Source: Bolinopsis microptera (Eukaryota; Ctenophora; Tentaculata; Lobata; Bolinopsidae). Taken from it: DNA of 64,000 bases. The notes beneath the pieces were generated by a model. The model was not told the DNA's origin, did not search any database, and saw nothing but the letters and a program-made list of their open reading frames with translations. Shown here one piece after another: positions 9,487-64,000 of the stretch. The stretch is taken from positions 18,493,118-18,557,117 of the forward strand of contig NC_087078.1 of assembly GCF_026151205.1 (NCBI RefSeq). Reading direction: 5' to 3'. Both the position numbers and the translations under genes were made by a program. Every line of letters starts with the position of its first letter. The stretch's first letter is position 1.

Positions 9487-10235
9487 AAATATACTCTGCA
9501 TTATTGGAATCACATCTTGCTTACGGAATAAGTGTTTGGGGCTCAGCCCTCAAAGACCAACCAAACGATAAGCTGTTCATAACTCAGAAACGTTGTATAA
9601 GAATCCTTTTTGGAGACCTAAATGCATACCTCGACAAACATGCCACTTGTGCACGAGCCAGACCTTATACAAAACAGAGGTTAGGAGCTGCTTTTTTCGA
9701 AAAAGAGCACACCAAGCCCATTTTTAATCGACTAAAATTGCTTACTGTTCAAAACTTGTACAAATACCACTGTATATCCGAGATATTTCGAATTATGAAA
9801 TTTCGCACTCCATACTCGTTGTATTGTACTATAGACTCATCAAAACGTGATACAAGCAATGTCATAATCCTCCCAAGAAAAACCAACACTTTTCTTTATA
9901 TAGCCTCCAAATTGTGGAATAGCATACATAAACGGATTCTAAATGAGAATGGGGAAATCCTCACTACTTCTGTATCTTTGGTTAAATTACGCTGTAAAAG
10001 TATCATCCTGGGATCTCAATCCATCAACAATAATAACACCTGGACTTACCACAACTTTCACATCGCCCCTCACTCAGTCACAGACCAAACCAGTTCATCA
10101 CTGCCGACCCAATATCTATTGAAGTGGCAAAAATTTTCTAGACAAATGACATATCGATATTATTATTGCTGCAGCAGATACAAATACCAACATTATTATA
10201 TTCCGAAACGTTTGAACTTTGAACCTTTAAATTGA
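9487..10235 (+). pseudogene. 5'-truncated LINE, RT C-terminal end
   Basis: The plus-strand frame reads LLESHLAYGISVWG and then ITQKRCIRILFGDLNAYL. It matches, residue for residue in many places, the post-RT C-terminal region of the LINE copy at 14,792-16,288 (FESHLCYGISVWGG, TQKKCIRILFGD). The polymerase palm with the FADD motif is absent, so this is a dead 5' truncation, the usual outcome of target-primed reverse transcription. It diverges into its own C-terminal tail after about 160 codons. Confidence 0.85.
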
Positions 10236-10929: not shown

Positions 10930-12045
10930 TTAAAATACAAGCTCATTCTTATCGAAGTTTAATTCTGTCCATTCTAATTCTTCGTACCTGGACTGTATCT
11001 TGAGTAGCTCACTTTTCAGTGTTACTTTAACTAAGTTCGTTGACTTAGTAAAGCTTATCAAACTGTCAATTTTTCGACAGTTGTTGAGTTGTTCCACATT
11101 TTTGTTGATTGATAAATGAAAGAGGAGGATGGGTTCGGGGTGATGAACTGGTCTGAACGTCTTTGTGATGGTGATCTGTGGAGTAAAGATAGGAGTGAGA
11201 TTGGAGATTCTAATCTGACAATTTTGAACAGTTCTAATAGACATGTGTATTTGTACAGGTTGTGGACGGTAAGAAGGCCGTTCTTGTTAAACAACGGCTT
11301 TGTATGCTCTTTTTCAAAGAATTCCCTTCCTAGGATTTGTTCATCTATACAACGTGTTCTGGCACATGTTCTAAATTTATCTAGATATGCTTCAAGGTCA
11401 CCACATAGTATTCTGATACATTTTTTCTGAGTGATGAAGATAGGTTGAAGCATATTGTTACTCGACCCACCCCATACCGATATTCCAAATCTTAGGTGTT
11501 ATGTGACTCAAATAACGTGTGGTACAATTCTTTATGGTGTTTTTTCGGGATAACGTGTCGTATTCTACTGAGTCTTCCAATCTCACACCTAAGTTTCGAG
11601 TTGAGGGCTCTTATTTGAACATCCCATTTTAGCTTTTCGTCAATAATAACACCTAAAAACTTGGTCTCTTGCTTTATTACCGTATTATTCAGAGTTAGTA
11701 TATATTCTGATTCGTTATCTGCCTCATTATCAGTAGCTGTACGTGACGGATTGAAGTGAATGTAGCAGCATTTCTTTATATTTATATGTAATAGATTGCA
11801 TTTCATGTACTGGTGTAACAAACGGAGAATTTCGTCTGCTCTTTCATACAGTTTTTTTCTACATTCATCTACTACGAATATGTTTGTGTCATCTGCAAAT
11901 AGTATGAACTTGCCCAGATCAGTTGTTCTAAATAAGTCGTTAACATATATTATAAATAGCAAGGGTCCGAGACAAGAGCCTTGGGGAACTCCAAAGAGAA
12001 CAGGCAGCTTGTCAAACTCTTCGCCCAGTAAATGTGATTGATGAA
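10930..12045 (-). pseudogene. 5'-truncated, frameshifted LINE reverse transcriptase
   Basis: The minus-strand frame opens at about 12,040 within the palm domain (LFGVPQGSCLGPLLFIIY), then the catalytic FADDTNIFVV and the thumb down to about 11,492. A break follows, and a shifted frame continues from 11,453 with FITQKKCIRILCGDLEAYL. It is the same family as the copies at 9,487 and 14,792. The N-terminal endonuclease is missing and the frames are disrupted, so it is inactive. A last shift near 11,060 carries the C-terminus to about 10,930. Confidence 0.88.
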
Positions 12046-12349
12046 AAGTATAAAAGCAAATAAACCGATTCTTATATTATTTTAACCCAGGCCTCAACGG
12101 GTGATATTTGTAAAATATTTGTTTCAAATATTAGGACCGTCAACGAGTCCAACTCGGCGCGTGTCCTGGTAGGTTATAAACTCACAAGCCCAAGCCGAAA
12201 TGATCATTTCATTTATGTTACACCATTAAAAGGATCAACAAACGAGCATGTAATTTAAATTTATTGATTTACGATGTCAATCCTTCGCAGCTCAGTGAGG
12301 CCCAGTGGTGCATTTTGCCGATCTACAGAAGGTTGCGAAAAGGATTATT

Positions 12350-14778: not shown

Positions 14779-16415
14779 AGATTAGATTAGATTAGATTAA
14801 GAATAATTCTAACAAAGATTTCTTAAGATTATTCTTGAATATACTGATGGGAGTGGAGAAGTCTATTTCACTTGTTGACTTACGGCAGTGATTCCAAATA
14901 CTAGTTGATTGATAGATGAATAGTGAGGATGGAGTGGGTGGGATGAAGTAGTTGTCTCGTCTTGGTGACCTGTTGAATAAAGAGAACATTGAGACTGGTG
15001 ATTGGAACTTATTAATTTTAAACATTTCCAGTAAACAGTGCAACTTATGAAGATTGTGGACAGTCAGGAAGTTATACTCGTTACAGATTGGTTTACTGTG
15101 TTCTAGTTCAAAGAAATCTTTGCCTAACATCTGCTTGATAACTTTACCGGTCTTATCCCTAGTGATAGGCCTTACTCTGGCACATGTTTTGAACTTATTG
15201 AAGTATGCATCATTATCACCAAAGAGAATTCTTATGCATTTCTTTTGTGTTTTAAATATGGCTTCTAGTTTATTATTTGATACACCTCCCCAAACAGATA
15301 TTCCATAACATAGGTGTGATTCAAAAAGGGTGTGGTACAGGTCCTTATATAGTTTTTTAGGTACACAGCGTCTAATTCCACATAGTCTACCTATCTCACA
15401 TTTCAATTTACGGTTTAACGCTCTTAAGTGAGCATCCCAGTTCAGTTTTTGGTCAATAATGACTCCAAGAAACTTAGTTTCCTCCACCTTTTTAATTACT
15501 ATATTATTTAGTGTCAGTTCTAATTCATTGGTGTTTGAATCTGGTTCATTTCTACAGTTCGGCTTAAAGTGGATATAACAACATTTCTTTATGTTGATAT
15601 GCAGCAAGTTACTCTTCATATACTGATGAACAAGTTTAAGAATTTTATTAGCTTTGCAGTAAAGTGTTTTTATACATTTATCTACAACAAATATGTTGGT
15701 GTCATCGGCAAAAAGTATAAACTTACCTAGGTCTGATACTCTATATATTTCATTGATGTAGATAATGAAAAGCAAGGGACCTAATACTGACCCCTGAGGA
15801 ACACCAAATATTACAGACAGTTTTTCGGATTCTTCTCCAAGTACTGAAACATATTGCTGTCTATTAGAAAGGTAACTGGCTATCAATTTATTTGCAGTCC
15901 CTCGAATTCCATAATCATTCAGTTTTTTAAGCAGTTTATCATGACAGATTGTGTCAAAAGCTTTACTTAAATCAATGAAGATGCCTAGTACGTGATTTTT
16001 ATCTCTTAAAGATTTTTCAATGTAGTCGACAGAGAAGTTGAGTGCATGGCTTGTCGAGTGATTTTTTCTAAAGCCATATTGATTTTCATATAATAATCCT
16101 TGCGACTGAAAGAAACTGTAAAGCCTGGAGAATATGATTTTTTCAAGTATTTTACCGAATATCGCTAAGGTTGAGATAGGCCTGTAATTTTCAAGAAGCT
16201 CAGCATTTTCTTTCTGATATATTGGACTTATTTTACCTACTTTTAGGTCGTCTGGAAAAAATCCCTGTTGCATACATTCGTTGTACAATACCGATAGTAG
16301 TGGGCTAATTTTGCCTGATACTGCCTTTACTATATGTACTGGTATGTCGCTAGCCTTGCCATTCTTAAGTTCCGATATGATCTCATTTGTATCAATTATA
16401 TTGATGCTACATTGT
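14779..16415 (-). mobile_element. LINE reverse transcriptase copy, 5' part missing
   Basis: The minus-strand frame runs from about 16,412 (SINIIDTNEIISELKNGKAS) to the stop at 14,792. It includes all RT blocks: ENYRPIS, NQYGFRKNHST, FIDLSKAFDTI, GVPQGSVLGPLLF, FADDTNIFVV, FLGVIID, then the LINE C-terminal region. The palm aspartates are intact and the frame is open, so the RT domain could be functional, but the endonuclease is not contiguous with it. The stop codon falls inside a (TAATC)n tract at 14,779-14,800, which looks like the element's 3' microsatellite tail. Residues at its left edge correspond to residues also present at the end of the endonuclease frame to the right (IYLHDCSPEEVAK), so this may be a separate insertion and not the second half of the neighbouring LINE. 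Confidence 0.88.
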
Positions 16416-16800
16416 TATTGAATATGAAATAATTTTCAACCGTATTAATTTATTAACTTATTGTAAATAGCAAGTTTGACAAAGGGATTACGTTTATTTT
16501 ACCCGGAGTTCGTTTAAGTTTAGTATTGTAAATAGTTAATTTGACGAAGGGAATACGTCTATTTTACCCTGAGTTATGTTTTAGTTCAATCTTGACACAA
16601 TTTTAAAATTATAATTTAATTATTTTATATATATGTATTGTCCATAACTAGGGTGGCCTGCTAACAGAACCATGATCTGCCTTGATTCATCCTTCAGCAC
16701 AGAGAAAAGCTCCTTTTTTTATACATTATGATTACAGAGGATCTGATATTTAGATATATATTGCTGTGCTGTAAAAATTGACTTTATTTATTTATTTATT
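16416..16800. other. AT-rich junction between LINE RT and LINE endonuclease parts
   Basis: About 385 bases separate the two coding parts. It holds an approximate direct duplication: ATTGTAAATAGCAAGTTTGAC and ATTGTAAATAGTTAATTTGAC, each followed by AAGGG and a TTTATTTTACCC/TCTATTTTACCC stretch, about 66 bp apart. An (ATTT)n run abuts the endonuclease frame. It looks like LINE 3'-UTR-type sequence and not coding DNA. Confidence 0.5.
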
Positions 16801-18540
16801 TTATTTAGCCACCTCCTCAGGTGAGCAGTCATGTAGATATATATTAGCTGTATTCGATTTAGGTAAGAAGTCACAGAAACTTGGAAGCTGATTTATTTGT
16901 ATCTCTCCTAGTTCTGTGTAGGCTGCATTAAGGTTAGATGCTAGGGATACAAAATACTTATTGAATTCATTAGCTATAACTCTGCGATCAGTTATCTTTT
17001 CATTGTCTATGGTAAATATAGGTCTGATATCACGTTTCTGTTTGCCACGAATTTTATTTATCAGTTCCCAGGTTTTCTTGGAATTTCCCTGAGTTTCAAG
17101 AAACTTGTCAGAATAATATTCAGATACAGCTTTTTTACGAACCTTTTTTAGAGCCTTTCTATATTCTTTGTAGTCATCATAACGGTTTCTTTTATTACAG
17201 CAGATAGAACACAGGCATGTGCCCCCTTTTGTGTCAGTTTCGCCTTGTTTACACTTAACTTTCCTGACTTTCGCCCAGTCATCATACAGCCCATGGCAGT
17301 GGTTTACTGAGGCTATAATCCCGCCAGTAATCCATGGGTTGTTCTGGATAGTGCGCTTAGTGGTTTTGGGTACAGCTAGTTTGCAGGTTTCGTCAATGCT
17401 GTTTTTAAAGATATCATGAAAGTTAGTAAAATCTATAATTGGTTCATTGTCTAGTTTGTTACCCAAGACTTCAGCAAATTTATCAGTGTTTGATTTACAA
17501 TAGTCATAATATTGAGTGTGCTTGTGAATATTTTTGGTCTTGCTAATTTCCCAGTCAAATATTGTAAATATAGGGAGGTGATGAGATATGTGATCAGTTA
17601 TGACTCCAGAGGCAGTAACAGAGTCTAGGTCATTTGTAATGATGTTGTCGATGCACGAGGCATTACATCCAGGCTTTTCATGAGTTGCTAATGATATCAA
17701 TGGAAAGAAGCCTCTACTAAATAGGACATCTTCATACTGTGCAATAATGCTACTGTGGTTACTATGGAGATTAATGTTAAAATCACCTGCAATGTGTGTA
17801 TGTTTTGGTGCTTTATCAAGTATTGACGACAGTTCTTGGAGAGCTTGCTCAGCATTGCCACTTGGAGGGCGGTATATTACTCCTATAGAAGTAGAATTTC
17901 CTAGACTACCTATAGTTACAAAGAGGGTTTCTAGATTTTCTGTTACTTGTGAAAGGTTGTTATTTTTGACAGCATTGAAGGAGTTCAGGACATATAGAGC
18001 TACTCCTGAGCCTTTTACTTTCGAGTCGAAGGTATCTTGATAGAAGCTCTCATAGCCTGTGAGTTCGTACAAGTTTTTCATTTCAGGGCCTACATTCGTT
18101 TCAGCAAGACCAATTACAGAGAATTTGTTAGTAAACCTAGCTATTTCAATTGCCAGCGAGTCAAAGTTTGATTTGTTGCCATCAAGATTTTGAAATATTA
18201 GTGAGTTTTGCACTTGTAATTCGTTAGCAAAGGTGCGGTTTATGTCTTTTACAGAATATGAATCACAGCTTTCAAGTACCTCAGAGATTTTACGTATTAC
18301 ATCATCTGCATCAGTGTTGTCATCATTGTCATCATTCAGAAGCTTAAATGGGTTATAACGGTTTACTGCTAGGTGGATACAATTATTGCAGTACAAGTCA
18401 ACTTTTTTATTTTGTTTGTCACTGGTGTTAAAACATCTAGAGTGAATGGGACAATTACAGCGGTAGCATTCAATTATAGATTGACCTAAGTAAATACTTT
18501 TTAAACAGTGGGCACAGACCTCTTTTTTAAGAACATTCAT
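16801..18540 (-). CDS. LINE ORF2, N-terminal part: zinc finger plus APE endonuclease
   Basis: 579 codons. Residues ~9-55 form a PHD/RING-like cross-braced zinc module (CAHC...CYRCNCPIHSRC...CNNC). The APE-type endonuclease that nicks target DNA follows, with LAETN (Glu), GVIYRPPSG, IAGDFNINL (Asp/Asn), CIDNIITND and SHHLP, the equivalent of the usual SDH with Asp replaced by His. A basic linker, RKALKKVRKKAVSEYY, comes next, and the frame ends at EEVAK just before the RT should begin. Its start codon overlaps the ORF1 stop (ATGA), so it is probably translated by termination-reinitiation. RT sequences of a related copy lie 385 bp further on. I infer that this copy is disrupted. Confidence 0.88.
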   Translation of the reverse strand: MNVLKKEVCAHCLKSIYLGQSIIECYRCNCPIHSRCFNTSDKQNKKVDLYCNNCIHLAVNRYNPFKLLNDDNDDNTDADDVIRKISEVLESCDSYSVKDINRTFANELQVQNSLIFQNLDGNKSNFDSLAIEIARFTNKFSVIGLAETNVGPEMKNLYELTGYESFYQDTFDSKVKGSGVALYVLNSFNAVKNNNLSQVTENLETLFVTIGSLGNSTSIGVIYRPPSGNAEQALQELSSILDKAPKHTHIAGDFNINLHSNHSSIIAQYEDVLFSRGFFPLISLATHEKPGCNASCIDNIITNDLDSVTASGVITDHISHHLPIFTIFDWEISKTKNIHKHTQYYDYCKSNTDKFAEVLGNKLDNEPIIDFTNFHDIFKNSIDETCKLAVPKTTKRTIQNNPWITGGIIASVNHCHGLYDDWAKVRKVKCKQGETDTKGGTCLCSICCNKRNRYDDYKEYRKALKKVRKKAVSEYYSDKFLETQGNSKKTWELINKIRGKQKRDIRPIFTIDNEKITDRRVIANEFNKYFVSLASNLNAAYTELGEIQINQLPSFCDFLPKSNTANIYLHDCSPEEVAK

Positions 18541-20636
18541 GCTGGAGGCTGATAGCCTTCAACATGAGGCTGTCCTCCGGCGGCATGAGAATAAAGTGTT
18601 GAACCAACCTTACCGTCCCTCCTCCCCCTCTTCCTCCTATCAGTCCCTCCATGCATCCTAACAAGGACAGTATTACGGATTAAAGTAGCAAGTTTGGCCA
18701 CTCCCTTCCAATTAAGGTGCAGGTAATCCGTTCGGCCATATCTGTCAAACTCCCTGGACAAGGTTAGGCAAAGTAAGCCAGTGTTATTGTCAAGGAAGTC
18801 ATCAAAGCCATCAACGAACTGGACACCAAAGTTTTTGGGGAGTAGCTCACGACGAATAAGTTCTATAAAGTAAAGAACTTTCCTATTTAAATCAGCATTT
18901 CGAGTTGGTAAAAGAGGACAAAGAAATACTTGGGCAGTTGGATTGGCCTCTTGAATTTGCTCAATCTTGAATTCTAGATGACTAAATATAGCAAAAATTT
19001 CACGCTGAGATTTAACAGATGGTCTTCTAACATCATTTATACCACACATAATAACAATGTTCTTGTATCCACATGCAAGATATGGGTTAATGTCATCTAT
19101 TGTAGGAGTCCAAACATTCCGACCAGGCAGCCACTTACCAAAGCTCCTTTTGTGATCCTCTCCAAATTTCATACCTGCTCCATTTGAATCAGAGAAGATA
19201 CAAGTACTGGCACGATTCTTTCCATCTATTGATCTGAAGGTGAAACTATATCGTACTGCACCAGTGACTGACCCCTTCTGGATAGAGTGCTTGTAGTGAG
19301 CCTGACTCCTTCTGGTCATCCTGTAAACTGATCTTGGAGTACACTTGTGCGTGTGAACTGGGTTGTTCATTTCAGTGAAGAGGACTTTGCATTCACCTCC
19401 AATGGAAAGAGTCAATATGCTAGACTCTGGATGTATCACCGGTTCATTGTCTGAATGTTCAGGCAGATAACCCTTGCCTTCTTCATAGCGGTTGATCAAC
19501 ACGCTATTCATTACAGGGTTTCCTTCTGCACAGAACTCCTCATTGATTTTCAGGACAAGTGCAGCAATTTTATCAGGGATCTCCACGGTTTTCTTATTCT
19601 CATCTCTGGATCCGCTATACTTGTACTTCTCTCCAAAAGAACATACTGAATGCCCATTCTCCTGACTGAACTGAAGAGATTCGCAGTATTGGAGAAGGTC
19701 TGATTCAGCATCACTGTTGATGAATTCTTCCACGGTGTCTACCACAGGTTTTTCCTCATGTTTAAAGGTGGTCTTTGATAGAAGGTGCTTATCATTTAAT
19801 GCAGAACCAGATGATGGCTGATCATGAGGAATTGTCGTCTGTTGGGAAGATAGTTGGTCTAGAGACTGCTTGATTTCCTTCAGTTCAAGAGAAATATGCG
19901 GTTCCTGCCGAGTATGTTCATCAAGCTGGTCTATGATATCATGTATCAATTTCTCAGTGTCAAGCTTGGGAGCAGTAGATGAGACAAGACCTTTGGTGGA
20001 AAGATCTGTGATTTGTTTCTGAAGGTCTTTAATAGCCTTTTTGACACCACTTACATCTTCACTTAGTTCTCCTTTACAATGGTCTTCTATGTTTTTGACT
20101 CGGTTTTGATGGTCTTTCAAACCATGTTCATTGGTTAGCAGGTGTTGCATGTGAAGGTCGAGGTTTTGGATCACCTGGATCGACTCTTTCATTTTATCAA
20201 CATCAATTGTTGATAATGATTTCGTCAAGGTTTCTATGTCCTTGAGATTCTGACAGGCAGAGTGCACCTCATAATCACTATTGGACTGTTGTAGACTCAG
20301 GGTGTTCCGACATTTGTAGCAGAAGTTGTTGTATGAGATATCTTTGATGGTGGTTGGTACGGGTGCAACGTAGCAAAATGGACATAACCACTTTTCCAGC
20401 TTCATTATTGACGGCTTCGTGATACCCTTTAGTCCCAGACAATCTGCATGCCAGTTCTGTTTGCATCCTGTGCATATTAGCTTGAAGCTTCCAGCATTCG
20501 ATTGGCTGCATGGGCATTTATCAACATTATGATGCTCTTTTTTAGCGGTTGGCCCTGTTCCTGTCACAGAGCCACGTCTATTTCCGGTAGATGGTGTTTT
20601 TATACCTGTACCTGACATCGCACAGCCAAGCAACAC
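18537..20636 (-). CDS. LINE ORF1: PHD + coiled coil + AlkB-like dioxygenase + SGNH hydrolase
   Basis: 699 codons, uninterrupted. (1) PHD finger at 41-88 with Cys41, 43, 55, 58, His63, Cys66, 85, 88, plus a further CYKC...HSAC set at 106-128. (2) Helical, charged coiled-coil-like region ~135-265. (3) AlkB-type Fe(II)/2-oxoglutarate dioxygenase ~340-470: NRYEEGKGYLPEHSD gives the HxD pair His394/Asp396, KHSI gives the distal His450 (56 residues on, the spacing of E. coli AlkB), and RYSFTFR gives Arg462/Arg468, the AlkB R-x5-R signature. (4) SGNH/GDSL-like esterase ~478-660 with FSDSNG, CGIND and DYLHLNWKG. PHD and esterase modules are known in CR1-group ORF1 proteins. An AlkB module between them is what stands out. 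If active it would demethylate nucleic acid bases, perhaps element RNA or cDNA; that role is inference. The tail is basic (RRKRGRRDGK). Confidence 0.9.
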   Translation of the reverse strand: MLLGCAMSGTGIKTPSTGNRRGSVTGTGPTAKKEHHNVDKCPCSQSNAGSFKLICTGCKQNWHADCLGLKGITKPSIMKLEKWLCPFCYVAPVPTTIKDISYNNFCYKCRNTLSLQQSNSDYEVHSACQNLKDIETLTKSLSTIDVDKMKESIQVIQNLDLHMQHLLTNEHGLKDHQNRVKNIEDHCKGELSEDVSGVKKAIKDLQKQITDLSTKGLVSSTAPKLDTEKLIHDIIDQLDEHTRQEPHISLELKEIKQSLDQLSSQQTTIPHDQPSSGSALNDKHLLSKTTFKHEEKPVVDTVEEFINSDAESDLLQYCESLQFSQENGHSVCSFGEKYKYSGSRDENKKTVEIPDKIAALVLKINEEFCAEGNPVMNSVLINRYEEGKGYLPEHSDNEPVIHPESSILTLSIGGECKVLFTEMNNPVHTHKCTPRSVYRMTRRSQAHYKHSIQKGSVTGAVRYSFTFRSIDGKNRASTCIFSDSNGAGMKFGEDHKRSFGKWLPGRNVWTPTIDDINPYLACGYKNIVIMCGINDVRRPSVKSQREIFAIFSHLEFKIEQIQEANPTAQVFLCPLLPTRNADLNRKVLYFIELIRRELLPKNFGVQFVDGFDDFLDNNTGLLCLTLSREFDRYGRTDYLHLNWKGVAKLATLIRNTVLVRMHGGTDRRKRGRRDGKVGSTLYSHAAGGQPHVEGYQPPA

Positions 20637-36389: not shown

Positions 36390-38774
36390 TCAATATCTCA
36401 TAGGAGCATCTAACATACTCAACTGTGCATGAGTGTCACCAGGCATACTATACGGCAACATACCCGCAAATCGCATCACAACTCTCGCCTGATCTCTAAT
36501 CTTCTGAGCTTGTTTGTTCTGCGCACCGTACAGACTATTGCCTGTTTTACTTGCATTTTTGTACAGTTTGTTAAGGATCGACATGACCATGATCAGAATG
36601 TCTGGAATGCATCTGCGTAACTCGTCGCTAAATGATTTGAATGCTTGGACTCTGTGGTTAATCGTGTCTTGCTGCAGAGGAATAATCTGCAGACGACCGA
36701 TAACACTCAAGGCTTCCTCCAATTTGTCGTGGCCACAATGATACAGCTTGTGGAACTTATAAAGATCCAGAAGCAGCAGGAACTGCTTGCGGAGGCCTGT
36801 ATTAGCGTTTGTAGTGCGCGGTTCCACATTAACCGCAATCTCGTTGATATGTTCGTGAGCTTTGTCGTTGGGCATCAGTTTTCGTGAAAGTTCCTCATTA
36901 AGAATCTCCAGGACCTTGTCATAGTTGTGGGCAAGTTCGTACAGTGTGACTGCTTCTTCCCAACATCCACGTTTTTCAGATGCTTCAGCAACAGTGGATA
37001 TGATCTGGGAGTGATTAACGTTGAACCTATCAATTGCTCCCTTTGTTTTTCTACCCGATGAGTCAAGAGTTCCTAAGAGCGTCTGATACTCCTTACTTTC
37101 CTGGATCAACTCTGCAATGCAAACTGTAAACATGTCCTCACCATCTTCATTCTGGACTCCGTGTAAAATATAATAGTAGTTCAGAGCACTTGTAGGGTTG
37201 GAACACGCAAACTTTCTCGTGTACCCGATAATAATTCTGGTAAGGTTTAAACGTTTGTGAGGAGACGGATCATCTTCACATTCACTCAGGACTGGTTGGT
37301 GGGGTGTAACAGAGAGGTTTATCATCCCATTTGAGTGCAAAGCCAGAGCCAGATGAATTGCGTTAGCTCTGCTTTCCTCGTTTCGGTACAAAACTTCAAT
37401 AGCAGATTCGTACAAGCCAGTTAAAAGTAAGACCAGAGCATACAAGTAAGGGCTCTGGAGAGAGTTAAAGTGATTCTCTCCATACTCCTGCAATACGTGC
37501 TCCTGAACTTCTGACAGTGAGATTTTGTCTTTATTAGATCGGAAGTCTCTGCCAGAGGAACTGCAAGTTAAAACGTGAACTAGCTTCAACCATAGGTAAT
37601 CTTGGACTGTTGTCAAAATGTCCCCATGTGTTCTTTCCATATCACACCCACCTAGTATAGAGAAAACCAGCCTCTTGTAAGGATCATTGCAGTTGTTCAC
37701 GCCACCATAATAAAGCTGCCTTACTTTATCCCTGGCTGCAGAGGGTGCGGAGATGTTGGCCCAGTTCTCTAGAATGGACTCCACCTCACCTTCGTATCCA
37801 TCATCCTGAAGAGCTTGCAGTGCAGCGGCAGCAGATCCACAACGTAAACACACAAAGACAAGTCCCCAAACTGAGGATTCTTGAGTTCTGACAGAAAGAT
37901 AACTGGATGCCAGCTCCATAACACCAGGCACTCCTCCCAGTTCAGCTTGTTCAAGGTGCCCACAAATAGTACTTTGAACGAACTGCTGAAATCCTTTCTC
38001 AAGATACTCAACCGACTTTTTGACCAGATCAAGAGAATTACTAGGTTTAAAACGGAGAAGAGGGTCATCAAAACAGCAACTGTTTACCAAGACTTCAACT
38101 AATTCCCAACAGTCTAGTACTGCTTTGCTCTCTCCAAACTCGTGAATTGTGCTCATAAACTCATCTATTAAAGGATATCTTCGACCAGCTATTACAGCAT
38201 CGTTTCTCCTTCCTATGACATCAGCAAATGATATCTCATCTTGGGACATAACAGATTCTTTACCCCAGTAAGAATTATTGACAGACAATGGCTGGATATC
38301 AACTGGGACATGGAAGTCGCTCTTAGTAGAACCTAGTAGAGCTGACAAGACTCTCTCTTTCTCTTCCTCCCAAAATTGCTGCAAAGCCTGGCTGTGGCGC
38401 TGAGAAGCTGATTTCATGGTACTGTTTTTGCTCTCTATAATGGCGCCAAGAAGTGCTTGTTCCCGCTCTCCTTTTAAAAATCCTTGAATATCTGTAACAG
38501 GAGAAATTTCTGTAGGTTCAATTGTTGTTGATTTAAGGGTTTCCATTTTTTGAGCCATTGACGGTACATCAAAACCTCGAGATCCCAAAAGAATTGAAGC
38601 TTTTACATCAGCACTATCATCAGTTGCCATGGCAGCTGTCTTCATCCATAGTCGCTCACCAGCCTCTGCAATCTGTCCCAAGTTTCTGTGAACTCTAGGA
38701 AGAGAAGCAGCATTTGCAGTGTCAGCATTTAACTGCTCAGCACTTTGGAGAAGGTCAGCAAAGCTGATGGACAT
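36390..38774 (-). CDS. NUP93: nuclear pore complex protein Nup93
   Basis: 794 codons in one exon (human Nup93 has 819). The N-terminus MSISFADLLQSAEQLNADTA matches the family's conserved Nup62-complex-binding start. The rest is the all-helical Nic96/Nup93 fold, with recognisable LGGCDMERTHGDILTTVQDY and YLWLKLVHVL, ALNYYYILHG, YDKVLEILNEELS, and a C-terminus RVVMRFAGMLPYSMPGDTHA near the end. Nup93 is the inner-ring scaffold that ties Nup205/188, Nup155 and the Nup62 trimer to the pore. CTCTCAG immediately before GATG suggests an acceptor site just upstream of the start codon, so a 5' UTR intron is likely. It is transcribed in the same direction as TXNDC9, 0.66 kb upstream of it. Confidence 0.97.
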   Translation of the reverse strand: MSISFADLLQSAEQLNADTANAASLPRVHRNLGQIAEAGERLWMKTAAMATDDSADVKASILLGSRGFDVPSMAQKMETLKSTTIEPTEISPVTDIQGFLKGEREQALLGAIIESKNSTMKSASQRHSQALQQFWEEEKERVLSALLGSTKSDFHVPVDIQPLSVNNSYWGKESVMSQDEISFADVIGRRNDAVIAGRRYPLIDEFMSTIHEFGESKAVLDCWELVEVLVNSCCFDDPLLRFKPSNSLDLVKKSVEYLEKGFQQFVQSTICGHLEQAELGGVPGVMELASSYLSVRTQESSVWGLVFVCLRCGSAAAALQALQDDGYEGEVESILENWANISAPSAARDKVRQLYYGGVNNCNDPYKRLVFSILGGCDMERTHGDILTTVQDYLWLKLVHVLTCSSSGRDFRSNKDKISLSEVQEHVLQEYGENHFNSLQSPYLYALVLLLTGLYESAIEVLYRNEESRANAIHLALALHSNGMINLSVTPHQPVLSECEDDPSPHKRLNLTRIIIGYTRKFACSNPTSALNYYYILHGVQNEDGEDMFTVCIAELIQESKEYQTLLGTLDSSGRKTKGAIDRFNVNHSQIISTVAEASEKRGCWEEAVTLYELAHNYDKVLEILNEELSRKLMPNDKAHEHINEIAVNVEPRTTNANTGLRKQFLLLLDLYKFHKLYHCGHDKLEEALSVIGRLQIIPLQQDTINHRVQAFKSFSDELRRCIPDILIMVMSILNKLYKNASKTGNSLYGAQNKQAQKIRDQARVVMRFAGMLPYSMPGDTHAQLSMLDAPMRY

Positions 38775-39217
38775 CCTGAGAGATATGTGAAATAAGTTTT
38801 ACAGTAAAACACCAATGTTCTGCAGAATTTAAGGAAAGAAAAATGCTGCGGTAAATTGGGGTTTAGGATGAATCAGGGTTTTTAGTGTTCACATTATGTA
38901 TAAATATGTAATAATAAAACAAATATTTAATAAAACAAATATTTATTTTTACGGCACAATCAAACAATATTAATAATAAATAAATCAGGGGAGGTTTGAA
39001 GAAGTTTCAAGTGCTGAAGGCCACTGCTTATCTTAGAATTAGACCGGGGGCGGTAAGTCAAGTTCTGTAAAACAAAGATTTTAGTATAACTTAAATTAAC
39101 AGGCTAACACTAGAATCAAGACAACAGGCTAGGGTGCTTATTTTTCGGAGGAGGGTGGGGGGGGGGGGGGGGGGGTTGACAACATGCTGGGGGTTGCCAA
39201 CATGCTGGGGGTTGCCA
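38775..39217. other. Nup93 upstream region
   Basis: AT-rich, with a homopolymer G run at ~39,159-39,174 and three copies of TGCTGGGGGTTGCCAACA just before the inverted duplication begins. The Nup93 promoter should lie here. Confidence 0.5.
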
Positions 39218-43312: not shown

Positions 43313-46300
43313 CTATTTGTGAGTATGTTTGATGTTGTGAAGGTCTGTGCTGTTTCTTTGTCTGATCTCCTTGTAGACAGGACATTCTTTAAGCAAATGG
43401 ACTTCGTCTTCTTTAATGATGTCACTAAACGGGAGCTCATTCAGGAGGTCTATGGTGATTCTGTCTGAGCTGCAGCAGAAGTGGCAAGCTCTGTAGAAGA
43501 TGCTTGAGTTTTTCCAGCCATATCGCCCCGTCTCGATATTAAGTTTGTGGGAGCTTGTCCTCAGCCATGTGGTACATCGGGTTTTCTTGTGATTGGGTAG
43601 AGACAGGTATGGTTCTAATCCAAAGCTGCTTTTGACTTCGTTGTAGAATGTAAGCTTTTTGTTTTCAAGTCGAGCTTTTTCCCACTTTTCTTGGAACCAA
43701 TTTCTCATTCTACTCCGAACGAGTTGGCTGTTCGGCATGGGAACATTCTTCGAGACAATTGTTCGTTTAATTGCTCCTGGGTCAAATGCGTCGGTCAGCG
43801 CTCTCGATGTTCGGAACCAGGTCAGCTCTAGGTTTCTTTGCTCTACAAAAGCATGGCGAACAATCTGTGGTGAGTTTTTTCTGTCAAGGAGGACGAGCCT
43901 GTTGTGGAAGTCAAGAAAGAGCTTACTCAGTTGTATTCCAAGGGGATATCTTCCTGTGTCTCCCCATATCGGGATATTTGAAGTTCTCTTGTTGACCCCA
44001 GTCGTCCATTTTAGCAGCGAGAGATGCATGCGCTCGATGCTGTCGTTCGCTAATTGACTGAGTGTGTCTTTGTCAGACTGTGTTTTCTTCTGGCAGATGT
44101 TGCTGAGAATGTTGGTATAGGGGAGCCACACCTGACTACCGTATGAGACGACAGGAAGTATAAGGGCATCGAAGAGTTTGAGCACAGCCTCTTTAGAAAT
44201 TGAGGAGAGATCAACCGTCTTTTTCAGGGAGAAGTATGCTCGAAGTCCTTTGATCCTGAGCTGCTCTTGGTTAAGCTTCATACTGCCACATATTGTGAAA
44301 TGAGTACCTAGGTAGCAGTAGCTTTTGACCGAGGGGATTACAATACTTCTGCCGTAGGTAAATGTTTTACTCTCGAGTAACTGCCTTCCTGAGGGATTGA
44401 AGATGATGACCGCAGTTTTCTTAATGTTAACAATCAATCCCCAGTTAGTGCAAAATATGTGGAGTTGGTCAATCATTAGCTGAAGACTGACCTTGTTAAG
44501 GGCTAGCAGAACCAGATCGTCCGCCCAAAGCAGGTGAGTAATCTGTTGGTTGTTGAGTTGGGGACTTTCCACTCCGGTTAGGGTGTTAATCTGGAGGGAG
44601 AGTTCGTAGATATAGCATTTGAAGAGTTCTGGGCTCAGGGGGTGGCCCTGTTCCGTTCCTGTATTAACGTCAAAACAAGCCGAGAGCTTTTTAACCATTT
44701 TAAGCCTTGCTTTTGAGTTTCTGTACATGTATTGGAGGCAATCAAAAAACCGCCCCTGCATACCAAGCTTATTTAATTTGTACAATAGTGCTTCTCTTGA
44801 TACCGTGTCGAACGCTTTCTGAAAGTCTACAAAACAGCTGTAGATTCTTTTCCGTTGGACTTTTACATATTTTTCAATACAGGTGTTAAGTGTGAAAATA
44901 TGATCAGAGGTTTGTGCCCCCTTGCAAAATCCTCTCTGGTTCTGTGATTCGGGGCAATGTACAGCTCTGAATTCGAGAAGTCGACTGAGCAAAATATTTG
45001 AAAATAACTTGCCCAGATTGCTGCCCACGGCGATTGCTCGATAGTTATCCGGGTCATGTGGACAACCTTTTTTGTGGAGAGGGGTAACGATAGTGGTGTT
45101 CCAAGGGTATACACCAAACTTAAGACATTCATTAAAGAGTTTTTGAATGAGTTTCACAACTTCGTCCGTCGATGTTTTGAGGAACTCATTAAGAATTAAG
45201 TCGATACCCGCTGCCTTTCCATTTTGTAAGCATTTGATGCCTTTCTTCATTTCTTCCTGGTCGATATCTCTGTTAAGGATTTCAGTGTCGATGATGATTT
45301 CACTTTCATCATTCAGTTTCACCAATTCGTTCGGTACTGTTTTGGTCTTGTACAGATCTTTAAAGAATTTATAAAAGTTCTCTATATCGAAGAGGTCAAG
45401 TACCGACTCTTCTTTATTGGCATCTTTAAGTTTATTGAAGTCCTTCCATGAGATATGCCCGTCTTGCAAGATGTCTTCATTGATTTCTTTGTAGAATAGG
45501 TATTTTTTATGCTTGATGAGACGCTTGTATTCCTTTTTCTTAGCGTAGTACTCAATGCGTATAACATCGTTTCTAGGCTGTTTTCCATATTTTCTGGCAA
45601 GCTTGTTGACTTCTCGTTTCAGTATAATGCATTTTGCATCGAACCAGCGATTTTTGGCCTGAATTCTTGGCTTGCGTTTCTTGGTGATATGATTTTTTCG
45701 GGGACCCTCTACATCTTTGTTGATGTCCACAAGGAGTCTGGTTAATCTAAGGTTAAGACTGTGGACGTCTTCTTCAGAATGACATACTTCGTCAACAAGG
45801 TCAGAGATAGTTTTAAGCGTACTTAGCTTAAGGAGCCTTGCTTTGTATTCTTTTGCTGATTGCTCACCATTCCACTGCACCTTTTCTTGTACATCATCGT
45901 AAAGGTTGAGAGCTGATTCTGAGTCTATTATTTTCTGAGTTGATTTCAAAGAGCACAGCAGCGGCCGATGGTCTGATAGGTCGGAGAGCTCAAGGACTTT
46001 GAAATGTTTGATTACATGTCGTGTGTCGTTTGATAATGCCATATAGTCCACAATACTGGTTCCATTGTATTGGTGTGACGTCGACTCGCCAAATATGTCA
46101 CCTAGAGTGGATCCATTTAGGATAGACATATTACAGCTCTGAATTAAGTCTAGGAATTTTTTACCCCGGTCATTGATGACAGGGTCCCTGCTTGCTCGTT
46201 GTTTGTGGTAAGAAGGGTAGGACTCGATTTGACCTGTTGTGAATTCCTCATTGCAGGGTTGAACCGCTTCATCTGCGTTAAGGTTACCTGTTCTTGCGTT

Positions 46301-46807
46301 GAAGTCCCCAACTAGAAGTATCGCTTTGGTCTTAAGTGACGCAATGAATTCAAGAGTATGCCCCATTGTGTCTACATCCGAGCCCAAGGCGAGCTTTTTT
46401 ATTTTGTAAGATGAGTTGGGAGGAGAGTCATACACATTTATAAGCATTAGGTCCTTGCTGAGCCCAGTAGCTGTAGTTGAGATATTTACAGCCAAGATGT
46501 CTTGTGATTCACACATAATAGGCCTCACAAATTCACTAATAGATCTGTGAACACCGATACAGAGACCGCCTGATCGTGAGTCAGACCTTAGTTTGTTAAA
46601 ACATTTATACTGGGGAAGCTCGACATTCCCTTTTGTTTCTTGGAGGCAGAAAATTAAACCGCTGGTTAGAGTTCTGGTGAATTCATTTTGATCCGTTTTC
46701 TTCCCAAGGGTTTGGTGATTAATGTCGTGAATATTCCAGGAGAGGATCGACAAATCACAGTTTTTGTATTCTACCTCACTATGCCTTTTCTTGTGATCGT
46801 TATTCAT
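43313..46807 (-). CDS. LINE ORF2: APE endonuclease-reverse transcriptase, intact
   Basis: 1,164 codons without interruption. The endonuclease has SWNIHDI, FCLQETKG, LLVGDFNARTG, SIVDYMALSN and LSDHRPLL, the full APE catalytic series. RT has NYRAIAVGSNLGKLF, NQRGFCKGAQTSDH, CFVDFQKAFDTV, GTEQGHPLSP and the active-site LLWADDLVLLA. The C-terminal region ends in a CHFCC...HLLKECPVY zinc-binding set. It nicks chromosomal DNA and copies the element RNA at the nick. The start codon overlaps the ORF1 stop within ATGAATAA, which fits reinitiation. The family differs from the 14.8-20.6 kb LINEs; the fragment at 57,490-58,195 resembles its C-terminus. Clade not assigned. Confidence 0.95.
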   Translation of the reverse strand: MNNDHKKRHSEVEYKNCDLSILSWNIHDINHQTLGKKTDQNEFTRTLTSGLIFCLQETKGNVELPQYKCFNKLRSDSRSGGLCIGVHRSISEFVRPIMCESQDILAVNISTTATGLSKDLMLINVYDSPPNSSYKIKKLALGSDVDTMGHTLEFIASLKTKAILLVGDFNARTGNLNADEAVQPCNEEFTTGQIESYPSYHKQRASRDPVINDRGKKFLDLIQSCNMSILNGSTLGDIFGESTSHQYNGTSIVDYMALSNDTRHVIKHFKVLELSDLSDHRPLLCSLKSTQKIIDSESALNLYDDVQEKVQWNGEQSAKEYKARLLKLSTLKTISDLVDEVCHSEEDVHSLNLRLTRLLVDINKDVEGPRKNHITKKRKPRIQAKNRWFDAKCIILKREVNKLARKYGKQPRNDVIRIEYYAKKKEYKRLIKHKKYLFYKEINEDILQDGHISWKDFNKLKDANKEESVLDLFDIENFYKFFKDLYKTKTVPNELVKLNDESEIIIDTEILNRDIDQEEMKKGIKCLQNGKAAGIDLILNEFLKTSTDEVVKLIQKLFNECLKFGVYPWNTTIVTPLHKKGCPHDPDNYRAIAVGSNLGKLFSNILLSRLLEFRAVHCPESQNQRGFCKGAQTSDHIFTLNTCIEKYVKVQRKRIYSCFVDFQKAFDTVSREALLYKLNKLGMQGRFFDCLQYMYRNSKARLKMVKKLSACFDVNTGTEQGHPLSPELFKCYIYELSLQINTLTGVESPQLNNQQITHLLWADDLVLLALNKVSLQLMIDQLHIFCTNWGLIVNIKKTAVIIFNPSGRQLLESKTFTYGRSIVIPSVKSYCYLGTHFTICGSMKLNQEQLRIKGLRAYFSLKKTVDLSSISKEAVLKLFDALILPVVSYGSQVWLPYTNILSNICQKKTQSDKDTLSQLANDSIERMHLSLLKWTTGVNKRTSNIPIWGDTGRYPLGIQLSKLFLDFHNRLVLLDRKNSPQIVRHAFVEQRNLELTWFRTSRALTDAFDPGAIKRTIVSKNVPMPNSQLVRSRMRNWFQEKWEKARLENKKLTFYNEVKSSFGLEPYLSLPNHKKTRCTTWLRTSSHKLNIETGRYGWKNSSIFYRACHFCCSSDRITIDLLNELPFSDIIKEDEVHLLKECPVYKEIRQRNSTDLHNIKHTHK

Positions 46808-47549
46808 GTAGTGAATCGTTCCGTAGGGTTCTGTTGTTTGTTTGTTTTGATGGTGTTTGGATTCCTACCGAGCGCTGCAGACTGTCTCTGAGACGTAGCC
46901 AAAGCCTAGATTGTCCACGTTCACTAAGTTGGATACTTGCTTTTCCATTGTCATTGATTTTTCTTTCTATGTATCCTCCTAGAGAGTCGTTGTTGGTTGT
47001 AAATAGGCGATCCTTGTACTTGTGGGAGGTTCTTTCGCAGGATATAAATTCCCTTAAGGTGTTGTTGATCTGCCGTAGTCTACTATTGGTTTCAGGGTAT
47101 CCTGGTACTGGTATCATAAGCGAAACACATAGTTTGGTTGAGGTATTCTCTAGAACATTGTAAATAATCTTTTTAAAGTTATTTGTTATGGTGTTGCCTT
47201 CTGTATTACACAGCACGTCACCGAAACCAACGTGAATAACTACAGTTTCTGGTTTGACTGCCTTGATCCGTGAAATCAGATTTCCGTTCTTGATGGTAGA
47301 TTCAGCAGATTTTTCTTTTAGACGGCTGATGTCAAAGACTCGTGAGAATTTGTCTTGCTCGAATTTGTCAAAGTAAGCATCATGCACAATGAGACATTTG
47401 TGTGTATTGAATTTTTTGCTTTGACTACTCTTTGGTCCTGTAAACGGAAGATTAGCTTTGCAGTTGGTTAGGATGTTTGTTTTCCTCAGCTGGTACTTTG
47501 TCTTAGGATTGGGAAGTAGATGTTTTCTCGAATCAGAGCTTGTTGACAT
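46800..47549 (-). CDS. LINE ORF1, SGNH-hydrolase-like
   Basis: 249 codons. KCLIVHDAYFDKF, then VVIHVGFGDVLCNTEGN and SLMIPVPGYPETNSRLRQIN, follow the block order of SGNH/esterase-type LINE ORF1 proteins: a strand with a nucleophile-like position, a GxND-like block and a late LSERGQSRLWLRL helix. Key residues are altered (GFGD for GxND, no clear DxxH), so catalytic activity is doubtful. Basic N-terminus, no zinc finger. It overlaps ORF2 by 8 nt. Confidence 0.7.
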   Translation of the reverse strand: MSTSSDSRKHLLPNPKTKYQLRKTNILTNCKANLPFTGPKSSQSKKFNTHKCLIVHDAYFDKFEQDKFSRVFDISRLKEKSAESTIKNGNLISRIKAVKPETVVIHVGFGDVLCNTEGNTITNNFKKIIYNVLENTSTKLCVSLMIPVPGYPETNSRLRQINNTLREFISCERTSHKYKDRLFTTNNDSLGGYIERKINDNGKASIQLSERGQSRLWLRLRDSLQRSVGIQTPSKQTNNRTLRNDSLHE

Positions 47550-47840
47550 ACTCCAATCTGTCGAATCATCAGGTGGGGCGTCATTCTTTTCGTTTTCCTT
47601 AGTATTTGTGCTGTTCAGGATTATTTTCTCTGATGTGTTGGTAGTTATATGTCATTCATCATGGGGGAGTGATTCGGAATCAGCGTCCAAATTGCATTGG
47701 ATAATACTGTCACTACTAAATCTTTTCAGATTTACAAAAATGTTGGCTATCGATTTAGCGGGAGCCGTTCTTGCATGTTTTGTAATTGTAAGCGATATTA
47801 ACAAATACAGTGACAAGTGACAAGTGATAAAGTTTATAAA

Positions 47841-58865: not shown

Positions 58866-59087
58866 AGCTAAGGCTCCATACCATTCACTATTATTAACTA
58901 TTAAATTTGCTTGTTATAAATTTGATAAATTTCGAGAGACAAATAAAACTACCGTTTAATTGATAATTTGTTGTTGTCAACATTATAATCATAAATTGAA
59001 ATCATCAAGAGTAAGATTGGGTACATAAATCATTGTATAACAGTTGCACGTTAATGGTGTTCTAGTACAGGTAGTTAGTTCCACCAA

Positions 59088-59777
59088 CTACTTATTCAGA
59101 TAAAGTTTGAGAATCTTATCGACAATAGTTGTGTTTTCGTTCATCAGTTTGTTTACATCAGATAGACTTGTAGTGGTGATAACTGCATCCAATAGAGATC
59201 GTTCTTCCAAACTTAAAATATCTGTTAGGTCTTTTCCGCTGTCAATTAAACGCTGCTTCAAGACAACAAACAATTCGGTTTTCATCATGTATGAGAATAA
59301 AATGTCAAAACATTTATTTTGCTCTTTACACAATTTACTTTGTAACAGGACGTCTAGAGATTTAAGTAAACTCGATATCTTTTTACTGTTTGGTTGTTTG
59401 ATTGGTACTCCTTTCCGCTTGCCTACGTGTTGCCAGTCAGTATCAGATTCTAACTCTTTAGCACTATATTCTTTGTTGGACTCATCATCGCTACTTGTTA
59501 CACCACTAAATTCATCATCACCACTACCTGGTACATCAGAGTTAGAACCACCTTGCTGAGATTCTTCAGAAACTATTGTATCAGCATCTGAACATACAGA
59601 ATCAGGACCTTCCATTTTGACATCAGTCGCATCTGAGTTAGCTTTTGACAGTGGCTGTAGAATTGCAGAACTTTCATCTGACTCTCGGTTCTCTCGATGA
59701 TACCTACTAATGTGTGAGGACAGACTATATTTATTGGCAAAAGACTTGTCACAGAATGAGCAGGTTACAGAATTCAT
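59088..59777 (-). CDS. single C2H2 zinc-finger protein, left-arm copy
   Basis: 229 codons. The N-terminal C2H2 finger at 6-27 is Cys6-x2-Cys9-x12-His22-x4-His27 (CSFCDKSF...HISRYH). A long acidic Ser/Asp/Glu-rich middle (~30-110), a basic patch (GKRKGVPIKQPNSKKI) and a helical C-terminal ~95 residues with LLKSLDVLLQSKLCKEQNKC and DILSLEERSLLDAV follow. Identical to the protein at 63,200-63,889. I do not recognise the C-terminal domain. DNA binding is likely from the finger; duplication in a palindrome suggests a mobile-element gene, but no transposase or polymerase is visible. Confidence 0.75.
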   Translation of the reverse strand: MNSVTCSFCDKSFANKYSLSSHISRYHRENRESDESSAILQPLSKANSDATDVKMEGPDSVCSDADTIVSEESQQGGSNSDVPGSGDDEFSGVTSSDDESNKEYSAKELESDTDWQHVGKRKGVPIKQPNSKKISSLLKSLDVLLQSKLCKEQNKCFDILFSYMMKTELFVVLKQRLIDSGKDLTDILSLEERSLLDAVITTTSLSDVNKLMNENTTIVDKILKLYLNK

Positions 59778-59814
59778 AACTGCAGTACAAACGTTTTATA
59801 ATGCTATGCAACAA

Positions 59815-60125
59815 CCATTATATAGCAATAATCGCATAAAATCGCAAATAATCGCAAAATAATCGCATATAATCGCATATAATAGCATATAATAGCATAT
59901 AATAGCATATAATGGCATAAAATTGCAAATAATCGCATATAATTGCAAAATAATTCCACAAAATAGCATATAATAGCATATAATCGCATATAATCGCATA
60001 TAATAGCATATAATAGCATATAATCACATTTAATCACATATATAATCACGTATATTATCTCTTAAAATCACATTTTATTATTTATAATTGCATATAATTG
60101 CAAATAATCGCATATAGTAGCAGGG
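59815..60125. repeat. (GCATATAATA/C)n array, left arm
   Basis: Degenerate decamers of the GCATATAATA/GCATATAATC type upstream of the zinc-finger start codon. It continues sparsely to ~60,740. The Tyr/Met/Ile-rich frames across it are artefacts. Confidence 0.9.
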
Positions 60126-60767
60126 TGAATATGATCCAACTTATGCATTCAACCTATTAAAGATCTTTTCAAAGATTTATTTTCATGCTGATTGCCAAGC
60201 ATCATCCTGGAGATGGAACTGTAACTCTTGAGTCTACCAAAGACTGCACCCAACATGTAGGAATACTTCCTAGTGGGGACATTAAAGGACCACACCAGAC
60301 AGGACAAGGAGATCATGGTAAATTCTACGTCAACTAGTCAGACGGAGATCATCTTCGAGATCTATCACTTTCTGGATTATCATTCATAACCAGTAGTCAG
60401 CGCACCATTGATTTCTGCTTTCAAATGATAACTGCTAATACTCTTGTCGATTTTATTGCACAGAAACCAGCATTTGACCGGGACCGGGGCCGGGATAGCT
60501 CAAAATTGCCAATCCCAGTACCGGGATTCCCGGTAGTACCGGGAATCCCGGTCGATTACTGGTGCATGCAACTGACCAGGTTTAGGTATCAGGTGATTTT
60601 TCCTGCAATTTGGTAGTTGTGAAACATCACCTTGGATTTCTGTTGTCACAAAACGTACCTTTTTAGACCTTTTCTCAAAGCATATTTAATAGCATATAAT
60701 AGCATATAATCGCATATAATCGCATGTAATAGCATTCGATCACATATATAATCCATTGGGTGGGCGA

Positions 60768-60845
60768 GAATTATCCCCCGACAATTGACCCCCGACAATT
60801 GACCCCCCGACAATTGACCCCTCGACAATTAACCCCCCGACAATG
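60768..60845. repeat. 15-bp repeat (CGACAATTGACCCCC)n, left arm
   Basis: Five units with small changes. The inverse array is at 62,130-62,207. Confidence 0.9.
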
Positions 60846-60961
60846 TAACTCAATACAACATCACTTCATACCATACTCCTCACGATGCTCTTGATCTAGG
60901 AAGAATGCACCTTTGTTGTGGTGTGCCACACTCCACATGAATAGATTCCCGGAAAATTCAG

Positions 60962-61955: not shown

Positions 61956-62906
61956 GGATTTGTTCATGTGGAGTGTGGCACATCACAACAAAGGTGCATT
62001 CTTCCTAGATCAAGAGTATCGTGAGATTTGTCCATGTGGAGTGTGGCACACCACAACAAAGGTGCATTCTTCCTAGATCAAGAGTATCGTGAGGAGTATG
62101 GTATGAAGTGATGTTGTATTGAGTTACATTGTCGGGGGGTTAATTGTCGAGGGGTCAATTGTCGGGGGGTCAATTGTCGGGGGTCAATTGTCGGGGGACA
62201 ATTCTCGCCCACCCAATGGATTATATATGTGATCGAATGCTATTACATGCTATTACATGCGATTATATGCGATTATATGCTATTATATGCTATTAAATAT
62301 GCTTTGAGAAAAGGTCTAAAAAGGTACGTTTTGTGACAACAGAAATCCAAGGTGATGTTTCACAACTACCAAATTGCAGGAAAAATCACCTGATACCTAA
62401 ACCTGGTCAGTTGCATGCACCAGTAATCGACCGGGATTCCCGGTACCGGGAATCCCGGTACTGGGATTGGCAATTTTGAGCTATCCCGGCCCCGGTCCCG
62501 GTCAAATGCTGGTTTCTGTGCAATAAAATCGACAAGAGTATTAGCAGTTATCATTTGAAAGCAGAAATCAATGGTGCGCTGACTACTGGTTATGAATGAT
62601 AATCCAGAAAGTGATAGATCTCGAAGATGATCTCCGTCTGACTAGTTGACGTAGAATTTACCATGATCTCCTTGTCCTGTCTGGTGTGGTCCTTTAATGT
62701 CCCCACTAGGAAGTATTCCTACATGTTGGGTGCAGTCTTTGGTAGACTCAAGAGTTACAGTTCCATCTCCAGGATGATGCTTGGCAATCAGCATGAAAAT
62801 AAATCTTTGAAAAGATCTTTAATAGGTTGAATGCATAAGTTGGATCATATTCACCCTGCTACTATATGCGATTATTTGCAATTATATGCAATTATAATAA
62901 TAAATG

Positions 62907-63165
62907 TGATTTTAAGAGATAATATACGTGATTATATGTGTGATTAAATGTGATTATATGCTATTATATGCTATTATATGCGATTATATGCGATTATATG
63001 CTATTATATGCTATTTTGTGAATTATTTTGCAATTATATGCGATTATTTGCAATTTTATGCCATTATATGCTATTATATGCTATTATATGCGATTATATG
63101 CGATTATTTTGCGATTATTTTGCGATTATTTGTGATTTTATGCGATTATTGCTATATAATGGTTG
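62907..63165. repeat. (ATTATATGCT/G)n array, right arm
   Basis: The mirror of the array at 59,815-60,125, upstream of the second zinc-finger gene. Confidence 0.9.
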
Positions 63166-63199
63166 TTGCATAGCATTATAAAACGTTTGTACTGCAGTT

Positions 63200-63889: not shown

Positions 63890-64000
63890 TTGGTGGAACT
63901 AACTACCTGTACTAGAACACCATTAACGTGCAACTGTTATACAATGATTTATGTACCCAATCTTACTCTTGATGATTTCAATTTATGATTATAATGTTGA

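Follow-up and report, generated by a model that had tools for sequence, protein, structure and literature searches.

A predicted AlkB dioxygenase domain in the ORF1 protein of a ctenophore LINE

Introduction

Retrotransposons of the class of long interspersed nuclear elements (LINEs) are very common in animals, and their least understood part is the set of proteins made from the first open reading frame (ORF1). The question raised by the locus described here is what an AlkB-type dioxygenase would do inside such a protein. The locus lies in a window of 64,000 nucleotides (the whole stretch of DNA that was analysed) from the ctenophore Bolinopsis microptera, contig NC_087078.1, positions 18,493,118 to 18,557,117. 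An earlier reading made from the letters of the window alone, called here the sequence-only reading, had placed an AlkB domain in a LINE ORF1, with a PHD finger on one side and an SGNH esterase on the other, and had suggested that it repairs or demethylates the RNA or cDNA of the element or counters a host methylation defence.

Results

The AlkB domain and its setting in ORF1

The ORF list of the window and its translation give a mechanical frame of 699 codons running from 20636 to 18537, in which the first ATG, Met7 at 20618, would be the eukaryotic start. The coordinates of the sequence-only reading hold and the strand is minus; a plus-strand reading of 18537-20636 was ruled out by many stops.

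The Pfam family 2OG-FeII_Oxy_2/AlkB (PF13532; 2OG, 2-oxoglutarate) matches residues 334-468 with an E-value of 7.3e-15 and 56.1 bits, above the curated cut-off of 31.2. The HxD...H iron ligands are His394, Asp396 and, at a spacing of 56 that is likewise found in E. coli AlkB, the distal His450, and the two arginines of RxxxxxR, Arg462 and Arg468, lie within RYSFTFR. Every residue of the AlkB signature that had been read from the letters is thus present and is kept in nearly all relatives examined. The AlphaFold2 model shows a double-stranded beta-helix, whose absence would have spoken against that reading, and in structure comparison its best Z scores were with ALKBH3 and ALKBH2, identity to the human proteins being 18-20% in those alignments. 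Judged by its residues and predicted fold, the domain appears to be catalytically complete.

The order of PHD finger, AlkB and SGNH esterase in a LINE ORF1 was borne out (Table 1). The PHD finger (PF00628) scores 25.8 bits, above the cut-off of 24, and has all eight ligands of the C4HC3 pattern (C41, C43, C55, C58, H63, C66, C85 and C88). The esterase is matched by Lipase_GDSL_2 (PF13472) at residues 518-645 with an E-value of 9.5e-6 and 26.7 bits, below the curated cut-off of 32.9; its catalytic blocks (Ser, Gly, Asn and Asp/His) are all present, the Ser block at 482-484 reading SDS in the window copy instead of GDS. The helical region that follows the PHD finger is a candidate coiled coil for oligomerisation, as judged from the model. 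At the C-terminus (residues 656-699) there is an arginine-rich tail with the family consensus NGGxDRR..., and the consensus of the family ends in a DGYQ-like motif immediately before the stop; the tail is a candidate for RNA binding or for a translation-coupling signal.

Conservation among relatives

A search with residues 20-665 of ORF1 listed 72 proteins that are 66% to 30% identical to it; the words of this search came from nearly all of ORF1, and the match list is limited by the word filter. Nine proteins were added with the AlkB part as query, and a profile built from twelve divergent members then extended the set to 163 rows including the window copy (162 relatives), a weak match in the dinoflagellate Polarella glacialis (P0164, E 2.8e-5) having been dropped before this count. 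The second and third searches were aimed at AlkB-bearing proteins and do not measure the share of related LINEs without AlkB.

His394 and Asp396 are kept in 72 of the 72 matches listed in the first search, which excludes a chance origin of the AlkB signature. In the larger set H394, D396 and E398 are each kept in 160 of the 163 rows (3 gaps each), H450 in 162 (1 gap), R462 in 160 (1 gap; Q in P0109, C in P0136) and R468 in 161 (2 gaps). The SGNH residues are kept to a similar count, with S484 in 161 rows, G505 in 162, N534 in 161, H640 in 157 (6 gaps) and D637 in 152 (6 gaps, 5 substitutions to S, N or E). Departures at any of ten AlkB and SGNH residues occur in 16 of the 163 rows, nine with gaps only and seven with substitutions. 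The AlkB residues recur, strictly retained, in about 160 relatives, and family members without AlkB or with a degenerate one, which would have spoken against the sequence-only reading, were not found among the relatives examined.

For 63 near-complete rows from the first search, mean pair identity is 0.50 in AlkB, 0.535 in PHD and 0.497 in SGNH, and 0.257 in the linker (residues 126-320); 19 AlkB columns are invariant. AlkB is thus conserved to the same degree as PHD and SGNH, unlike the linker, and that its residues are retained across so much divergence points to purifying selection on the predicted enzyme. Sequence clusters reach up to 55 members (P0041, P0126), in keeping with amplified families. 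Scans of viral contigs and genome contigs found no DNA of relatives; a further viral-contig scan gave two contigs with AlkB at 28-29% identity, and tblastn against phages yielded a single weak match (32% identity, E 1e-6).

The nearest AlkB proteins

A profile of 12 LINE AlkB domains was scored against structures in the PDB, which ranks by similarity and is not a tree of all AlkB groups. The scores were 70 bits for ALKBH2, 54 for ALKBH3, 48 for ALKBH8, 30 for E. coli AlkB, 28 for the worm DNA 6mA demethylase and 20 each for ALKBH6 and ALKBH5. E398 lies at HxD+4, which by spacing is the place of D135 in E. coli AlkB, where we take the HxD histidine to be H131. In E. coli AlkB, D135 contacts N6 of N1-methyladenine (m1A) and has a role in specificity, and the change D135I confers activity on N6-methyladenine (m6A) (PMC7968990).

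ORF2

ORF1 and ORF2 overlap by ATGA, and the presence of two ORFs, with an EEP endonuclease and a reverse transcriptase (RT) in ORF2, identifies the element as a LINE, an APE-type retrotransposon without long terminal repeats (non-LTR). It is provisionally labelled CR1-group from the ORF1 modules, not from an RT tree. The last endonuclease motif reads ISHHLPI in the window (17569-17586, minus strand) and ISHHHAI in the Mnemiopsis protein P0103. LINE endonucleases usually have SDH in this motif, and ISHH in its place points to a possibly altered nuclease in this lineage. A short-repeat 3' tail would be expected of a CR1/L2 element; the TCTAA-type repeat at the ORF2 stop is a candidate for one but was not seen at the ends of two remnants that were inspected.

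Hosts, tree and module shuffling

The named relatives are P0017 of Bolinopsis microptera and P0065, P0101, P0103, P0115 and P0130 of Mnemiopsis leidyi, both ctenophores, and they sit on multi-megabase contigs; the AlkB-bearing element is present in two ctenophore genomes. The Mnemiopsis gene model P0103 joins an AlkB-SGNH ORF1 to an endonuclease 48% identical to the window ORF2 (E 4e-141). Its domain order suggests a misjoined or tandem annotation, yet the same pairing is found in a second species.

A tree of 151 rows was made by a quick method with support from the approximate likelihood-ratio test (SH-aLRT) only, leaving out P0163 and 11 rows that are short in AlkB or SGNH. In it the window copy clusters with P0002, P0003 and P0160; the Bolinopsis copy and P0021 join them next (SH-aLRT 96). 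Among the 91 rows with PHD, AlkB and SGNH distances correlate with r 0.81 over 3741 pairs (Mantel 0.774, with the mean used for missing pairs; the highest value in 200 permutations was 0.126), and both correlate less with PHD (0.53 and 0.51). In one clade, of 12 rows (SH-aLRT 98), the N-terminus is a different one and lacks the PHD ligands (P0076-P0080 by Pfam). Since 23 changes are required to place 87 PHD rows on the tree, the N-terminal part of ORF1 is often swapped, lost or truncated; truncated rows blur this count, and gain and loss are not separable by counts.

In P0163 (861 amino acids) AlkB is followed by a linker and then by a different SGNH-like domain. A comparison of four sequences aligned the end of this protein, at 26% identity (E 7e-10), with the ORF1 of a second LINE in the window (Table 1), which has no AlkB; a profile scan of the six frames of the window found AlkB in the ORF at 18537-20636 only. 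P0163 may be a second recruitment of AlkB or a recombinant. Because it pairs AlkB with a different SGNH-like domain, AlkB appears by sequence to have at least two kinds of setting in LINE ORF1.

Table 1. Positions of the AlkB-bearing LINE, its domains and a second LINE in the window
Feature	Position	Strand	Remarks
LINE ORF1 from first ATG (Met7)	18537..20618	minus	693 codons and stop; ends in the ATGA overlap with ORF2
PHD finger, residues 41-88	20373..20516	minus	Pfam PF00628, E 1.1e-5; ligand columns kept
Long helical region (predicted), residues 107-264	19845..20318	minus	AlphaFold2 secondary structure; several helices, lower confidence
AlkB 2OG/Fe(II) dioxygenase domain, residues ~291-473	19218..19766	minus	H394, D396, H450, R462, R468; E398 at HxD+4
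SGNH/GDSL esterase domain, residues ~476-660	18657..19211	minus	S484, G505, N534, D637, H640
ORF2, first part	16801..18540	minus	N-terminal zinc finger and EEP endonuclease; stops early
C4HC3-like zinc finger at ORF2 N-terminus	18379-18516	minus	Read from sequence; Pfam gives a weak C1 match only
EEP endonuclease of ORF2	17566-18189	minus	PF14529 6.7e-5, PF03372 4e-4, both below Pfam cut-offs
ORF2 break	16415..16800	minus	386 bp separating endonuclease from RT; contains stops and a frame change
ORF2, second part: RT	14792..16414	minus	RVT_1 15455-16213, PF00078 E 2e-36, above cut-off; FADD motif
TCTAA-type short tandem repeat	14779..14798	minus	Across/after ORF2 stop; read from sequence; candidate 3' tail
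Second LINE, ORF1-like frame	46803-47651	minus	SGNH-like domain, without AlkB
Second LINE, endonuclease-RT frame	43316-46864	minus	1183 codons

Discussion

What would a dioxygenase do in ORF1? ALKBH2, ALKBH3 and AlkB remove m1A and N3-methylcytosine (m3C). This removal by AlkB is also described in PMC7968990, where m1A is reported to disturb reverse transcriptase and where laboratories use AlkB to strip methyl marks for tRNA sequencing. We lean, by a modest degree, towards a predicted template cleaner acting in cis, which would likely remove RT-blocking methyl groups of the m1A/m3C type from the RNA or cDNA of the element. This mechanism is preferred because of the profile rank of ALKBH2/3, the acid at HxD+4 and the disturbance of RT by m1A. 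By analogy, the ORF1 protein (ORF1p) would attach in cis to the RNA that encodes it, and it would multimerise through the helical region. Inside the resulting particle AlkB may oxidise N-methyl groups in single-stranded RNA or first-strand cDNA, while the esterase may anchor the particle at membranes, a role proposed for ORF1p of the LINE ZfL2-1, and the PHD finger may read chromatin or a protein. Because methyl groups of this kind disturb reverse transcriptases, the gain would be a larger yield of full-length cDNA. Of the two earlier suggestions, repair or demethylation of the element's own RNA/cDNA seems to fit best because the domain is nearest to ALKBH2/3 by profile.

Several observations weigh against this proposal. 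Pfam found neither an RRM nor a zinc knuckle in ORF1, and RNA binding in cis is drawn from analogy only. In the profile ranking an unrelated tectonin scores 22 bits, over ALKBH6 and ALKBH5, and marks the start of noise; by Foldseek E-value ALKBH6 comes first with ALKBH2 close behind; and in the viral structure library some AlkB domains of RNA viruses reach 30% identity (a Picornavirales protein), above the human ALKBHs. On these grounds a place in the ALKBH2/3 subgroup, nearest by profile and Z, is only provisional for the LINE AlkB, as is any view of its origin. ALKBH2 and ALKBH3 act on DNA too, and DNA is a possible target here. The window copy itself is no longer autonomous, because ORF2 is interrupted by stops and a frame change while ORF1 is intact. 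In the Mnemiopsis protein P0101 the AlkB ORF1 lies between RT pieces, and its RT is 36% identical to that of the window over 89 residues; it is perhaps an insertion into another LINE, and such gene models therefore mix elements.

The other reading of the AlkB domain with a precedent in a retrotransposon is an epitranscriptomic counter-defence, in which it would erase host-placed m6A from LINE RNA, as proposed for the ALKBH5-like protein of an orchid Ty3/Gypsy element. It fits less well because ALKBH5 is far below ALKBH2 in the profile ranking (20 against 70 bits) and because L1 in human cells benefits from m6A and is suppressed by ALKBH5 (PMC7873242). Of the 163 rows, 160 have the acid at HxD+4, whereas it is the change D135I that gives E. 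coli AlkB its m6A activity (PMC7968990), and on balance we regard an m6A eraser as rather unlikely. Slightly less likely still is a role on DNA, the repair or demethylation (m1A/m3C or 6mA) of the target site or of first-strand cDNA in target-primed reverse transcription, with the PHD finger as guide to chromatin. The presence of that finger in the same protein, the action of the nearest solved relatives, ALKBH2 and ALKBH3, on DNA, and the score of the worm DNA 6mA demethylase are in its favour, but no DNA substrate is demonstrated here and LINE ORF1p is mainly an RNA-binding particle protein.

That the domain modifies tRNA or protein in the manner of ALKBH8, or serves as an oxygen or 2OG sensor gating the particle, would agree with the third place of ALKBH8 by profile; with ALKBH2/3 ranking higher and with the best Z scores going to ALKBH3/ALKBH2, we think it improbable. 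A one-off capture, a degenerate passenger or a host gene that lies beside a LINE by chance might be thought of in view of the broken ORF2. Capture as a single event is rejected because the AlkB residues are retained, with rare exceptions, across 162 relatives, and a neighbouring host gene because ORF1 overlaps ORF2 by ATGA and Mnemiopsis has the same pairing (P0103), so we give this family of explanations next to no weight.

ORF1 proteins of CR1, L2 and Jockey elements have been sorted into types I-V, which include PHD (type III) and esterase (type IV) forms (PMC4120745). The present element resembles LINEs of the CR1/L2 lineage in its ORF1 and endonuclease/RT ORF2, its PHD and SGNH modules and the shuffling of modules at ORF1, but none of those types has AlkB, and 'AlkB' and 'dioxygenase' have 0 occurrences in the text of PMC4120745; the esterase type is found there in two vertebrate groups only, and here in ctenophore elements. 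ORF1p of ZfL2-1, with an esterase and a membrane role, likewise has an SGNH esterase with an Asp-His-Ser triad and Asn/Gly oxyanion residues (PMC3905857), but both words have 0 occurrences in the text of that paper too.

Outside LINEs, the AlkB domains of plant positive-strand RNA viruses have been mapped and were considered most likely to be repair domains protecting viral RNA (PMC544882). They too lie within a polyprotein of an RNA-copying parasite for which repair of its own RNA is proposed, but in the replicase of an RNA virus and not in a LINE ORF1; direct comparison is limited to the viral structure listing. The closest retrotransposon parallel is the orchid (Phalaenopsis) Ty3/Gypsy element, which also encodes an AlkB dioxygenase with intact residues, in an additional ORF of an LTR element; this ALKBH5-like m6A eraser has demethylase activity in vitro (PMC9289625). 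In contrast, the element here is non-LTR, has AlkB inside ORF1 and a LINE-type endonuclease-RT in ORF2, is ALKBH2/3-like by profile and occurs in many divergent families. Human ALKBH2 and ALKBH3 differ in being host repair enzymes that are not fused to PHD or SGNH. No paper on AlkB in a LINE was found among the titles and abstract openings of the open-access matches listed, subscription literature and Repbase being outside this scope.

The element would thus be a LINE with an enzyme that appears new to ORF1, and other proposals of self-cleaning by AlkB concern some RNA viruses and a single orchid element. It may well be, though we rate the idea slightly below even odds, that animal LINEs include a large and old group equipped with a nucleic-acid repair enzyme of its own, the AlkB-SGNH core being almost never degenerate in the relatives examined, that this enzyme is needed for copying and erases RT-blocking methyls in cis, and that AlkB, having also entered a second ORF1 type (P0163), is an accessory that recurs among parasites that copy RNA, whether viruses or retrotransposons. 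That a repair-type dioxygenase has stayed fixed in ORF1 through deep divergence suggests that chemical damage or marks on template RNA or cDNA limit retrotransposition enough for selection. The testable questions are then whether methyl lesions on RNA restrict retroelements, and whether repair in cis raises full-length insertion. The element also offers a natural pair of AlkB and RT, like those that laboratories assemble for sequencing modified RNA, and a new ctenophore system.

Other Features of the Window

Broken RT remnants at 11088-12088 (minus strand) and 9489-9932 (plus strand) are 47-64% identical to the RT of the element and are further copies of related LINEs in the window. A long frame on the minus strand (36393-38798) may encode a Nup93-like protein. 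A sequence of about 1970 bp is present twice in inverted orientation, at 58977-60939 and 62033-64000; the two arms are 98.8% identical, and each has a 235-codon frame that is zinc-finger-like in look.

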